Assembly (NCBI GenBank): GCA_015233015.1
Contig: JADFYO010000005.1
Span: forward strand, 1-64,000
From: Nitrospirota bacterium
Lineage (GTDB): Bacteria; Nitrospirota; Thermodesulfovibrionia; Thermodesulfovibrionales; Magnetobacteriaceae
Direction: 5' to 3'
Length of the DNA stretch: 64,000 nucleotides
The notes beneath the pieces were generated by a model. That model ran no database searches, had not been told where the DNA came from, and saw nothing but the letters and a program-made list of their open reading frames with translations. Of the stretch, positions 8,286 through 46,385 are shown in pieces. Position 1 is the first letter of the stretch; each line of letters opens with the position of its first letter. Made by a program: the position numbers and the translations under genes.

Positions 8286-10199
8286 ATGATACAATCGGTA
8301 ATGCCGGCAATCGATATACTATTTCCATTTAATCTGCGGCCGCTTACTTACATCTGCCCTGACGCCTTGAAGGACAAGGCCGTACCCGGTGCACTTGTTT
8401 ACGCGCCTCTGAAGGGAAAAACCAAAATGGGGATAATCTACGGCATAACCCCAAACTTTAAAGGAAAACCAGACACGTTAAAAGAAATAACCGGCATCGC
8501 CGCCCACCGCAGCGCGCTGCCGCGGGAAATCATGCGGCTAATTGCGTGGATTGCCGAATACTACCTCGCGGAACCCGGCCTTGTGCTTAGCTTTGTCCTG
8601 CCGCGGGTGTTTTTTACAGATGAAAAAAAAACTGCCATGCGCCGCGCAGCCGACCTGCCCAAGCAGTCGTTTAAACCCCAGAAGATTAAAAAAGAAGACC
8701 TGCTTATATTAAAAACCGGCGCTAATCCCGATGATACCCAAAAGCCCGTCCTCCTTCATACCCCATCATATGACTACCAGCTGTCATATATATGCAAGGC
8801 CGCCAAAGCCGCAAAAAATACGCTCATCCTGTGTCCAACGATAGAAGAGGTAAGATACCTCGGCGCGGTTGTCTTTGATACAACCGGCATTCGGCCGATT
8901 TTAATACACGGCGAGCTCACCCCAGCCCAGCGTTTAAGCGCCTGCGAGGAGAGCCTTAACGGCGACAAGTATTCCATAGTAATAGGGACGATGTCAGCGG
9001 CGTTGTTCCCATTTATTAAGGCGTCTCTGATAATCGTCTCAGATGAGCACAGCCCGTACTATAAACATGAGAGGACGCCGCGGTATAACGCCCGCGATGT
9101 GACCGTAATGAGGGGAACTCTCGAAGGCACCCGGGTCGTTTTAATGTCCACCTGCCCATCGAGCGATTCATATTTCAAAACAACGACTAACGAGTACACA
9201 TATCATAAACCAGCCACGGCACCGAAAAGGCCGCAAATAAGCATATTAGCAACCCGTTCCTTCAAGAAACTCATTCCTGACCGCATAACTGCGGGCATTA
9301 CAAACACAGCAGAAAAAGGCGGTAAATCGTTCGTCTATGTAAATAAAAAGGGCTACTCGACGATAATTTGCAAGGACTGCGGCACTGTGCAAAAGTGCCC
9401 CGTCTGCAAGGCAACGCTCGCCTTTCACGAGGACAAGTCCATGCGGTGCCACCGCTGCGGTTTTACCGCGAAGCCGCAGGACTTTTGCCCTGTATGCTCA
9501 GGGCTTGACCTGAGAGAAGTCTCCCCAGGCTCAGAGCGTCTTGTGGAGTTTATACGGGAAAAGACCGGCCTGACCCCTGTCCGCATCGACAGAGATACCG
9601 CCAAAACACCGTCTATATTTAAACGTATGGCGGTAAGTGCCCTAAGGAGCGCCGTCCTGATAGGCACCAAGCTCTCGCTCAACAAGATAGTATTTAATAA
9701 ACACTTCAAAATCCTTGCGGCGGTCAATCCCGACGTTTACTTTAGTTTTCCCGGCTATCTGACTGCCGAGCGATTGTATCAGGATGTCTTAGTAATGTCT
9801 GAGATGGCCGAAAAAGACGGCAGGATCTATCTGCTTACCGCCCTCAAAGAAGAGCTGACGTATAAATTTCTGGAAAATTATGACTATGAGGGATTTATAT
9901 TGAACGAGCTGAAAAAGAGAAAGGAATTGAACTACCCGCCCTTTTGGAAAATGGCGTCGATTGAGTTTCACTATAACGATGAGAAACCAGATATAAAACT
10001 ATACGGCACTGCCGGGGCAGTGGAAGTCCTTGGCCCTGTCCCTTCGGACGATATAATAAGCGGTTACAACCAAAGCGCCCGTATGATTATAAAGGCAAAA
10101 GACTCAGCCTCCTTAACCGGGGCAATCAAAAACCTCAAAAAGATGTTAAAACAACCGGGACCGAAACTACGCATCGTCATAGATATAGACCCCGTGTAG
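8286..10199 (+). CDS. priA: PriA-like primosomal protein lacking helicase motifs
   Basis: 637 residues aligning in order with PriA, the replication-restart protein that binds stalled forks and loads DnaB. Present: the N-terminal 3'-DNA-binding domain (L-R-P-L-T-Y near 18), a DEAH-box remnant S-D-E-H-S-P-Y-Y-K (252-260) followed by P-R-Y-N-A-R-D, and eight zinc-binding Cys (362, 365, 371, 374, 388, 391, 401, 404). Missing: the Walker A loop (G-x-T-G-S-G-K-T is replaced by H-T-P-S-Y-D-Y-Q, 158-165), motif V (no G-H-D-F) and motif VI (no Q-x-x-G-R-x-G-R). ATP-driven unwinding is therefore unlikely; a structural primosome role may remain. The start could also be the ATG at 8301. No intact second copy is in the window. 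Confidence 0.8.
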   Translation: MIQSVMPAIDILFPFNLRPLTYICPDALKDKAVPGALVYAPLKGKTKMGIIYGITPNFKGKPDTLKEITGIAAHRSALPREIMRLIAWIAEYYLAEPGLVLSFVLPRVFFTDEKKTAMRRAADLPKQSFKPQKIKKEDLLILKTGANPDDTQKPVLLHTPSYDYQLSYICKAAKAAKNTLILCPTIEEVRYLGAVVFDTTGIRPILIHGELTPAQRLSACEESLNGDKYSIVIGTMSAALFPFIKASLIIVSDEHSPYYKHERTPRYNARDVTVMRGTLEGTRVVLMSTCPSSDSYFKTTTNEYTYHKPATAPKRPQISILATRSFKKLIPDRITAGITNTAEKGGKSFVYVNKKGYSTIICKDCGTVQKCPVCKATLAFHEDKSMRCHRCGFTAKPQDFCPVCSGLDLREVSPGSERLVEFIREKTGLTPVRIDRDTAKTPSIFKRMAVSALRSAVLIGTKLSLNKIVFNKHFKILAAVNPDVYFSFPGYLTAERLYQDVLVMSEMAEKDGRIYLLTALKEELTYKFLENYDYEGFILNELKKRKELNYPPFWKMASIEFHYNDEKPDIKLYGTAGAVEVLGPVPSDDIISGYNQSARMIIKAKDSASLTGAIKNLKKMLKQPGPKLRIVIDIDPV

Positions 10200-10286: not shown

Positions 10287-10393
10287 GAATCATCCTGAGC
10301 TTGTCGAAGGATCTCCGATTTACGGGGAAATGAGAGATAAAGGAGCATCCTTCGACAAGCTCAGGATGATTCTTTACTCAGGATGATTCTTTA
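10287..10393. repeat. Inverted repeat element, copy 1 (ATCCTGAGCTTGTCGAAGGAT)
   Basis: A 26-bp left arm (10287-10312, core TCCTGAGCTTGTCGAAGG) and its inverted right arm (10347-10372) are separated by 34 bp. The right end TCAGGATGATTCTTTA is then repeated directly at about 10378. The same arms recur at 12093-12188. The rest of 10200-10670 holds no gene I can support. Confidence 0.8.
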
Positions 10394-10670
10394 ATGGGTT
10401 ATTCTTTAATGGGATAATTGTTACTTCTATGGCTGCCACTTAGCATTAGTATCAATCTGTAACTGATATGTAACTCCCAATAATATATTATTAACATAAG
10501 GTCTAATATAATTGACATTAAAGCAATTGGAGGCAATACAAATAGAAATAGTCTGAGACGAAACGGTATTACCTGATTATGATGGGCGGCAATTCCACAC
10601 ATTGGTAACTTTATACTAACAAATCGCTACCGCCACCCTTAGAACATCATGAAATACAACGGTTTTTCTC

Positions 10671-10686
10671 TGGCACGATAATTGCT
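10671..10686 (+). promoter_or_regulatory. Sigma-54 (-24/-12) promoter
   Basis: TGGCAC (10671-10676), five bases, TTGCT (10682-10686): a full match to the RpoN consensus TGGCAC-N5-TTGCW. It lies 58 bp upstream of the regulator start at 10745. Upstream at about 10456-10475 two TGTAAC direct repeats 11 bp apart could be activator sites. Confidence 0.8.
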
Positions 10687-10744
10687 TCTTTACATTCGGC
10701 ATATGGATTAATAAACTATTTCACTTATCAGAGTGAGGCGGTAT

Positions 10745-12022
10745 ATGTATAAAGTAGTTCTGGCAGTCAGTGAATATGCAACAAGACAGGCATTGAAATA
10801 TTTTTTAGAATCGAATAGTTATTCGGTATTAGAAGCGTCAAACGGTGCTATAGCCATTGAATTTTTTAAAGAAGCTCAGCCAGACGCGGTTATTCTTGAT
10901 TTAAAATTATCTGATGCCGGCGGGTTAGACGTATTACGGGAGATGAGAGAACTGAGAGCTGATACGCCGGTTATATTATTGGCCAGTCATGACGAAAGAG
11001 ATATTGCGATAGGGGCCTTAGGCAATGGGGCATATGATTATTTCCCCAAGCCTCCGGAGATAGAAAGGCTCATATTTGCCTTAACCAGAAGTATCGAGGA
11101 CAACATGAGCTTAAACAAAGCGAAACACACGGCTGATTTCATGTTGAAGTGGCATTTAGGCTCCGGTAAAGGCATGGAAAATACCATACGAGATATAGAA
11201 ACAGCCGCTGACTGCAACGTTCCAGTAGAAATTCAGGGTGAAAACGGCACTGGTAAATCTCTGATTGCCAGACTAATTCATTACTGCAGCAAGAGGGCGC
11301 GTAGTCCATTTATACATATCGACACCGATGCGGCCTTCAAGGGAAACAAGGATATACCTGCCAAAGTTGGCAAATTGTTTAAGCAGGCTGCCGGCGGGAC
11401 GATTTACTTCAGAGGACTGCAAGCTATGTCGGCTGCCGCTATGACCAATCTGATTTCGGCAATCACTAAAACGGATGATAATGACCAATCTCAGTCAGTT
11501 CGCATTATAACATCCTTCCCGACCAATATCATGAAGCGCGAAAATGAAAGAGAGCAACCCGCCGATTTTTTATACATAGAATGGTTTGTAATCAAAGTGC
11601 CGCCGTTATATGAAAGGATTGAAGACATCCCGTTTCTTGCTTCTAAGTTTATAGCAGAGACAGCCGACGAATTGAATGTCCCGGTAAGAGATATAAAGAA
11701 GGATGCCATAACTCTCTTATTGCAACATTCATGGCCGGGCAACGTAAGGGAATTAAAAAAAGCAGTACGGCGGGCGATGGTTATTTCAGAAGGATCACTT
11801 CTGAGGCCCGAACATTTTTACTTTTTAAAACCCGGCAAAACTCCCCCTCCGACAATGTCGCTGAAGACCGCGGTGGCAAAGGCCGTAAGAGATACCGAGC
11901 GCAAGGCAATTCTCAAGGCTCTCGACTTAACCTCGGGGCATAAGACAATGGCTGCCTCCATGCTGGGCATCAGCAGAAAGACACTTTGGGAAAAGCTCAA
12001 AGAACATAACATAGCAGAGTAA
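10745..12022 (+). CDS. NtrC-like response regulator with degenerate AAA+ domain
   Basis: 425 residues from ATG 10745, preceded by GAGGCGG; a GTG at 10733 would place the ribosome site inside the gene. Receiver domain 1-120: phospho-acceptor D52 (V-I-L-D-L), Lys in F-P-K-P, but the usual acidic pair near residue 8 is S-E. AAA+ domain about 130-340: Walker A G-E-N-G-T-G-K-S is intact; the GAFTGA loop that contacts sigma-54 is absent, and Walker B reads I-Y-F-R-G-L instead of L-F-L-D-E. A Fis-type HTH is C-terminal (M-A-A-S-M-L-G-I-S-R-K-T-L). Family knowledge says GAFTGA is required to open sigma-54 complexes, so this protein probably binds DNA without activating in the usual way. It is transcribed from its own sigma-54 promoter. 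Confidence 0.8.
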   Translation: MYKVVLAVSEYATRQALKYFLESNSYSVLEASNGAIAIEFFKEAQPDAVILDLKLSDAGGLDVLREMRELRADTPVILLASHDERDIAIGALGNGAYDYFPKPPEIERLIFALTRSIEDNMSLNKAKHTADFMLKWHLGSGKGMENTIRDIETAADCNVPVEIQGENGTGKSLIARLIHYCSKRARSPFIHIDTDAAFKGNKDIPAKVGKLFKQAAGGTIYFRGLQAMSAAAMTNLISAITKTDDNDQSQSVRIITSFPTNIMKRENEREQPADFLYIEWFVIKVPPLYERIEDIPFLASKFIAETADELNVPVRDIKKDAITLLLQHSWPGNVRELKKAVRRAMVISEGSLLRPEHFYFLKPGKTPPPTMSLKTAVAKAVRDTERKAILKALDLTSGHKTMAASMLGISRKTLWEKLKEHNIAE

Positions 12023-12092: not shown

Positions 12093-12188
12093 GAATCATC
12101 CTGAGCTTGTCGAAGGATGCTCCTTTAAGTCTCAATTTCCCCTAAATCTGAATCAATCGGGCATCCTTCGACAGGCTCAGGATGATTC
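12093..12188. repeat. Inverted repeat element, copy 2
   Basis: Arms at 12093-12118 and 12163-12188 match those at 10287-10372 almost base for base (the right arm has CAGGCTCAGG). The two copies flank the regulator gene on both sides. This looks like a small palindromic (REP/MITE-like) element; it can also fold in RNA downstream of the regulator and may stop or protect its transcript. Confidence 0.8.
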
Positions 12189-12266: not shown

Positions 12267-12354
12267 ATGAGCTATGATTATTAACCAAACAGGACATTTC
12301 TACTTTGCTATGACACCTTCGGCGTTGATTTTACAATGCGTGTCGTGTTAATGT

Positions 12355-12540
12355 AAATAAAGTTTGGCTGGATATAAGGGAAGAGAAGTGTGATACTTCC
12401 GCTGCCCCGCAGCCGTGATGGGAACGAAAACCCTGTGTTGTTTGCCACTGAGGAAGGCTCTTGTTTGAGAAGACGCCTTGGGAAGGCGGGTGAGTAGGAA
12501 AGGCCCTGAGCCGGAAGACCTGTCCAGTGAAATCACGAGG
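12355..12540 (+). promoter_or_regulatory. Cobalamin riboswitch
   Basis: Contains the family hallmarks in order: GAAGTGTGATACTTCCGCTG followed by CCCCGCAGCCGTGAT, then CCACTG with GAGGAAGGC, and near the end the B12 box GCCGGAAGACCTGTC at about 12510-12524. It lies upstream of cbiK and should repress the cobalt uptake/chelation operon when adenosylcobalamin is plentiful. Confidence 0.93.
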
Positions 12541-12585
12541 GTGGATGACTGTGAGTGTTTTGCAAACAATTGTTGAAGCGCGTGG

Positions 12586-46193: not shown

Positions 46194-46385
46194 AAGGGCA
46201 AGACCGCCTGCCCTGTTGGTGATTATATGAGAAAGTTATTCCGACTCACGTAAGTTCGGGAGCCTTAGTAAGAGCGCTCAGAGAGCATGCCGCTTTAGGC
46301 GGAAGCCCAACGCGTTCTTTTCGGCACCCACCTGTGAAAGCAGGGACTTAACTTTCTTGTGTACACCGCAAGGGCGGGTTTTATT
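46194..46385 (+). ncRNA. ssrS: Probable 6S RNA (SsrS)
   Basis: About 190 nt, GC-rich and non-coding. It contains elements remembered from 6S RNAs: TTCCGACTCACGTAAGTTCG-like 5' bubble strand, GGGAGCCTT, the apical hairpin GCCGCTTTAGGCGGAAGCCC, and CACCTGTGAAAGCAGGGAC near the 3' end. CCGCC near 46204 can pair with GGCGG near 46373 to close the rod. 6S RNA lies next to rarA in several bacteria, including Bacillus, and rarA follows here. 6S RNA binds the sigma-70 holoenzyme in stationary phase. An SRP RNA or tmRNA was considered and fits less well. Confidence 0.7.

Follow-up and report, generated by a model that had tools for sequence, protein, structure and literature searches.

How does a regulator of the NtrC type that should be unable to work with sigma-54 come to be encoded behind a sigma-54 promoter, and what might such a protein be kept for? 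The question is raised by a gene in a 64-kb window of Nitrospirota DNA (the window being the whole stretch analyzed), where what we call the pseudo-activator gene stands alone between a priA-like gene and a cobalamin riboswitch with cbiK. We propose that its product is probably a brake on, or a partner within, a small gene network of stress-like character. The start codon is taken as ATG 10745, which opens a conserved MYK; the start in the open-reading-frame list is GTG 10733. The features of the gene, its protein and its neighbors are as follows.

8286..10199, forward strand: priA-like gene, the upstream neighbor in 6/6 loci (domain matches)
10735..10741, forward strand: RBS-like GAGGCGG, seen in the sequence and similar in most orthologues
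10745..12022, forward strand: pseudo-activator gene, 425 aa, with receiver, AAA+ and Fis-type HTH (open reading frame, Pfam, alignments)
10766..10771, forward strand: position of the receiver acidic pair, here Val-Ser (DDD to VSE; alignment)
10898..10900, forward strand: phospho-acceptor Asp52, kept in 6/6 (alignment)
11237..11260, forward strand: Walker A, GENGTGKS, kept (alignment)
11336..11365, forward strand: site of the deleted L1/GAFTGA loop (alignment)
11399..11416, forward strand: TIYFRG in place of Walker B, without the acidic pair (alignment)
11885..12004, forward strand: Fis-type HTH (HTH_8) with recognition segment SRKTLWEK (Pfam, alignment)
12353-12541: cobalamin riboswitch, preceding cbiK and cobalt-transport genes, the latter assigned by eye

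As far as is known, the priA-like neighbor lies outside the sigma-54 regulon described below. The Walker A motif expected of PriA is GxTGSGKT, and the PriA-like protein (8286-10199) has apparently lost its ATPase P-loop too, reading TPSYDYQLS or near variants in 4/4 aligned genus copies; the remainder still matches solved PriA, and dead-looking ATPases are encoded by two adjoining genes. Inverted pairs of ATCATCCTGAGCTTGTCGAAGGAT lie on both flanks of the pseudo-activator gene (10289-10370 and 12095-12186), where all four copies of this repeat in the window are found. Elsewhere in the window, a 6S RNA gene occupies 46202-46384.

Motifs lost and kept in the pseudo-activator

Pfam assigns the protein a receiver (Response_reg, 75 bits), an AAA+ lid (AAA_lid_14, 75 bits) and a Fis-type HTH (HTH_8, 49 bits), the lid and HTH both above cut-off, together with a partial Sigma54_activat match (52 bits) that covers profile positions 3-60 of 168. 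For PF00158 it scores 46 bits, and the 18 strong activators of its own genome score 154-248 bits; the PHROGs matches were to the receiver, part of the AAA domain and the HTH, and to nothing else. Aligned with intact relatives, the six genus orthologues all keep Walker A (GxxGxGK), with the last Ser replaced in one (GKF), and all have lost by deletion the GAFTGA (L1) loop that contacts sigma-54, so that the pseudo-activator is about 13 residues shorter where the loop stood. Walker B reads TIYFRG versus TI(L/F)(I/L)DE in intact relatives, sensor 1 reads VRIITSFP versus VRIIAATN with loss of its Asn, and the arginine-finger motif RED-LFFRL is absent; a TIYFRG-like Walker B, sensor-1 SFP and the lack of an arginine-finger motif are common to 6/6 orthologues. 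Both the lid and WPGNVREL remain. Of the receiver residues, the Asp is present in 6/6 orthologues and the Lys in 5/6, the acidic pair is replaced by VS or SS, and the Thr has become Ala or Val in 6/6 (Ala, with Lys kept, in the window copy), leaving the protein short of the full residue set of a phosphorylatable receiver (acidic pair, phospho-Asp, Thr/Ser, Lys). Alignment gaps at the acidic pair in three relatives reflect a later match start, with DDD present in the fuller sequence.

Given the loss of GAFTGA, the Walker B DE, the sensor-1 Asn and the arginine fingers, the protein should neither hydrolyze ATP normally nor contact sigma-54, an expectation based on the account of activators given in a review (PMC7175178), and the comparison supports the view that it cannot be an ordinary sigma-54 activator. 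The earlier note, made from the sequence alone, had described a regulator that keeps Walker A, lacks GAFTGA, the Walker B acidic pair and the Mg-binding acidic pair of the receiver, and cannot itself use sigma-54; alignment bears out each of these absences and adds the loss of the sensor-1 Asn and arginine fingers. The protein is best explained as a pseudo bacterial enhancer-binding protein, with predicted DNA binding and the lid kept, and with ATP hydrolysis, sigma-54 contact and the phosphorylation pocket presumably lost.

Orthologues (53-65% identity) occur in five of the six other genus genomes, the lone exception, G003, being 64% complete. The losses are common to all six copies found among the seven genomes searched, and every copy lies directly 3' of a priA-like gene. 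An order-wide search of 176 genomes, with the six-row alignment as query and about ten candidates scored per genome, gave matches at E 1e-85 or better in 42; the six genus copies scored 690-815 bits and all others at most 376 bits. A scan of the genome contigs returned one unrelated partial match. The intact order-wide subfamily (L036 and relatives) has in common with the pseudo-activator a linker signature before the HTH but, unlike it, keeps GAFTGA/GSFTGA in 30/30 examined members outside the genus (those in the tree), several of which adjoin chemotaxis genes. Walker B is intact among these 30 in 27 by pattern and in L046 by eye, a tally that does not include L197 and L211, and a residue-by-residue reading of 14 non-genus rows showed both Walker B and the arginine fingers intact; L055 has GAFTSA with an intact Walker B and is not degenerate. 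In the tree, the degenerate copies form a single clade, supported at 100/100 and borne on a long stem (0.9), that is nested in the subfamily; their grouping with the intact relatives has support of 100/98.

By counting in four genomes, dN/dS is 0.21-0.32 for the pseudo-activator versus 0.12-0.18 for priA, and the gene is constrained, though less than priA. Purifying selection extends over the lid and HTH, and dN/dS tends to peak in the AAA+ domain; in the L031 orthologue, the Ser of Walker A and the Lys of the receiver have gone as well. A check of homologues for the missing motifs, which the earlier note had proposed, returned losses in 6/6 genus orthologues and intact loops in all 30 members examined outside, and the recent decay that it had named as one way for its reading to fail is not what these data suggest. 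Because the losses are common to all six orthologues and the gene is under purifying selection, this is, judged from the comparisons, a genus-level change of function and not recent decay, and a recent pseudogene is ruled out by six open, conserved orthologues.

The promoter and its paired dyads

Three elements lie upstream of the gene.

10583..10597, forward strand: enhancer-like dyad 1, TGGGCGGCAATTCCA, of the class TGG-N6-AATTCCA (6/6 orthologues and other sigma-54 promoters)
10602..10619, forward strand: enhancer-like dyad 2, TTGGTAACTTTATACTAA, kept in 6/6
10671..10686, forward strand: sigma-54 -24/-12 promoter, TGGCACGATAATTGCT, exact (motif match, conservation)

Within the 64-kb window, TGGCACGATAATTGCT is the sole exact or one-mismatch match, which alone is weak evidence because shuffled windows average 1.94 matches at up to one mismatch. 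Across the 3.78-Mb genome there are 13 exact matches versus 1 for the reversed control pattern. The decisive evidence is conservation: the promoter is real because it is kept in all six orthologues, 54-76 bp before the ATG, where the upstream DNA retains TGGCA(C/T)(G/A)ATAATTGC. In the upstream 350 bp, sigma-54-site scores are 10.9-12.5 for the genus copies and never above 10.2 for 13 intact relatives. This genome is one of five, among the seven of the genus, that carry rpoN; the two without it are 64% and 73% complete. The TGGCAC-N5-TTGCT promoter that the earlier note had placed before the regulator thus stands, exact at 10671 and present in 6/6 orthologues, and a transcript start would be expected near 10697. 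That the match arose by chance, as about two per window do at up to one mismatch, and that another promoter is used is extremely improbable and is ruled out by conservation, given retention in 6/6 copies at invariant spacing to the dyads, the 13 versus 1 genome-wide count and the distribution of rpoN.

Dyad 1 sits 88 bp upstream of the -24 box in 6/6 orthologues, and dyad 2 follows at a spacing of about 20 bp, or two helical turns. The genus consensus is TGG-N6-A(A/C)TTCCA, then some 20 bp on TTGGTA-N6-TACTAA or a variant, and the remainder of the upstream region is conserved more patchily than the promoter and dyads. The exact form of the dyad pattern occurs once in the genome. Counts of the pattern in the genus against reversed controls (11 vs 13, 10 vs 7, 9 vs 11) give no clear enrichment and so prove nothing by themselves; the case for these putative enhancers, a class defined after the sites had been seen, rests on position, promoters and orthology. 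Sigma-54 sites next to the intact members of the subfamily were also searched for dyads, with nothing useful emerging. With a -24/-12 element and a candidate activator site upstream, the pseudo-activator gene has the predicted makeup of a sigma-54-dependent gene, and, as an apparently inactive protein encoded behind a conserved sigma-54-type promoter, it should therefore stand downstream of another, intact activator.

Other genes behind the same dyads

The earlier note had advised looking for binding sites at other RpoN promoters, and the dyad class indeed recurs before NLR-like NACHT genes, before genes on contigs C96 and C148 of the same genome and before one gene of genome G004. When the collected loci were scanned for dyads lying no more than 155 bp from a strong sigma-54 site, 11 contexts emerged, every one belonging to this set. 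The distance from dyad to -24 box is 88 bp in the six gene copies, 90-91 bp at four NACHT loci and 97-98 bp at three others, and the extremes therefore differ by about one helical turn. In the same scan, L158, L165, L166, L167, L170, L175 and L176 had no dyad-plus-promoter; of the dyad matches from the pattern counts, L120, L123, L127, L130, L177 and L178 were set aside with no strong sigma-54 site nearby. A dyad lies within 200 bp of three of the genome's 13 exact sigma-54 sites (the pseudo-activator gene, C96 and C148); Markov resampling gave a mean of 0.072 and a maximum of 2 in 2000 sets, for a dyad that was defined on these very sites.

In G000 (contig C44) and G004, the dyad box recurs in the interval separating an MgtE_N/CBS gene from a divergently oriented NACHT gene, and it also precedes the NACHT homologue of G002; the corresponding sigma-54-type promoters are TGGCATGGTATTTGCAA in G000, TGGCATGGAAATTGCGT in G004 and TGGCACTGAATTTGCAG in G002. 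In G005, the box is kept beside an MgtE_N-type gene with a weakened or decayed promoter, and this 73%-complete genome yielded no NACHT homologue; the NACHT homologue of another genus (G008) has no such promoter. Scored with a matrix built from the boxes of the six pseudo-activator genes, the NACHT loci reached 39.6, 27.6, 25.7 and 15.8, against a best unrelated score of 17.6 in a background of about 776 kb, which places the G002 box (15.8) inside the background; the top row, L109, is the G000 NACHT locus. At 999 aa, the G000 protein carries NACHT and NCH3 domains; hydrophobic segments lie within its first 100 residues and recur from about position 730 onward. PADLOC matched it only weakly (22 bits at best) and had no match to the tested proteins of C96 and C148.

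The C96 and C148 sites are exact (TGGAATCCAATTCCA and TGGAATGCAATTCCA, respectively). Behind promoter and shared dyad, C148 (L217:403-2970) encodes an 855-aa protein with HD-CE, a conflict-system domain, and an Hsp90-like ATPase, and C96 (L216:6442-9517) has three overlapping or adjacent open frames of 680, 205 and 145 aa, none with a Pfam match, the 680-aa protein having a signal-peptide-like start. The further dyad-promoter context of G004 (contig C44) precedes the gene for a small secreted-looking protein. A literature search for HD-CE listed no paper with that name among its matches, and among the matches listed for sigma-54-controlled NACHT or HD-CE/Hsp90-type genes there was likewise none, which is not proof of absence. 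Bacterial NACHT proteins are described as defending against phages (PMC12169576).

The position of the pseudo-activator gene in a small sigma-54 regulon with a shared, putative paired-dyad enhancer is well supported by these comparisons, and this conserved enhancer and the regulon that it defines are added findings. From such a shared regulon it follows, on established sigma-54 knowledge, that some intact activator must switch the set on; control by another NtrC-type activator, as the earlier note had suggested, gains support from the shared enhancer and from the 18 strong PF00158 proteins of the genome. One of these 18, the intact activator G000:C86 (L215:7738-8973), is a receiver-less member of the same subfamily, 411 aa long, with GSFTGA, Walker A and B and arginine fingers; its N-terminal 90 aa or so are unrelated. 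The C122 activator of the same genome (L007), whose helix NRKTLWEK is similar, is not favored as the dyad binder because the upstream repeat at its likely target, judged by eye, is a different one, GTTAC...GTAAC. That C122 region (L169:4950-5260) has a sigma-54-like site, TGGCAAGAAACTTGCAC, with two copies of a repeat of this kind upstream; the site follows a sensor/activator pair and precedes a cytochrome/molybdopterin-type operon.

Possible roles of the pseudo-activator

The reading that we lean towards, with somewhat less than even confidence, is that the pseudo-activator is kept as a DNA-binding brake or heteromeric partner that feeds back on its own sigma-54 regulon. An intact activator would fire the regulon promoters through the shared dyads, the pseudo-activator would be produced as a member of the regulon, and it would then occupy the same enhancers or enter the ring of the activator, with the output most likely damped by negative feedback. 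We infer here both the identity of the dyad binder and whether control is positive or negative, including the link of the dyads to the pseudo-activator rather than to another activator; its own promoter region holds the only conserved candidate operator found for it. The recognition segment SRKTLWEK, identical in five of six copies and SRKTLWKK in G004, fits selection for DNA binding by the protein itself, whichever DNA that may be. This helix is unlike the DYKTLLTK and similar helices of intact relatives, and the protein may therefore have left the ancestral regulon.

VpsR of Vibrio cholerae combines a receiver, an AAA+ domain and a Fis HTH, and is found among the solved relatives of the pseudo-activator (7v2b, E 1.6e-21). 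It points to a possible, if rather unlikely, alternative in which the protein is expressed from a sigma-54 promoter, has its binding sites elsewhere, and turns sigma-70 promoters up or down with no need to hydrolyze ATP. The NtrC architecture without GAFTGA and the changed recognition helix favor such a role, and GAFTGA-less NtrC of Caulobacter and Rhodobacter, as well as VpsR, are described as acting at sigma-70 promoters (PMC10274813). Against it, no target site was identified, the sole conserved candidate operator being the promoter region of the gene itself. Like the pseudo-activator, the R. capsulatus and Caulobacter proteins are NtrC-type regulators with a clade-conserved deletion of the GAFTGA loop, but Caulobacter NtrC still needs Walker A, Walker B and the phospho-Asp, and VpsR, also GAFTGA-less, works without ATP (PMC10274813) and depends on c-di-GMP (PMC10714721). 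The pseudo-activator differs from the two NtrC proteins in also lacking Walker B, the sensor-1 Asn, the arginine fingers and the receiver acidic pair, and in being encoded behind a sigma-54-type promoter; in the parts of the VpsR literature consulted no report of such a promoter was found. GAFTGA-less regulators are thus already known, and the present protein is, by its motifs, more extreme in having also lost the chemistry of hydrolysis and of the receiver. All 37 activators of Desulfovibrio vulgaris are described as keeping a recognizable, sometimes substituted, motif (PMC4641369).

We consider it unlikely that the pseudo-activator is instead a heteromeric co-activator, contributing the DNA contact, and perhaps a signal, to a ring in which an intact paralogue such as C86 performs the catalysis. 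Activator paralogues do form mixed complexes, as described for HrpR/HrpS, FleQ/FleT and VnfA1/A3 (PMC9542535), and the genome holds an intact candidate in C86, whose grouping with the degenerate clade was not rejected (p-AU 0.166), although a p-AU above 0.05 does not demonstrate that clade and the losses of arginine fingers and Walker B would make the pseudo-activator a poor ring neighbor. Very unlikely is a slowly decaying leftover, a former activator still made but functionless: dN/dS above that of priA, its tendency to be highest in the AAA+ domain and the further losses in L031 would suit it, but the frames are open in 6/6 orthologues, dN/dS is well under 1, the recognition segment is near-invariant, and promoter and dyads are kept at up to about 50% protein divergence.

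Returning to the brake or partner that feeds back on its own regulon, a more specific and distinctly doubtful version is that the dead homologue is the feedback off-switch, through ring poisoning or displacement and a pulsed response, of a threat-sensing sigma-54 regulon that arms membrane NACHT, HD-CE/Hsp90-ATPase and secreted proteins. The question opened is whether a catalytically dead activator can be selected for sigma-54 rather than sigma-70 promoters, and it is directly testable here because the protein is more degenerate, genus-wide and inside a sigma-54 regulon. The shared enhancer ties sigma-54 control to NACHT-type and HD-CE/Hsp90-type genes, and, if the off-switch were true, bacterial NACHT-type genes would be under sigma-54 control and be turned off by a dominant-negative activator.
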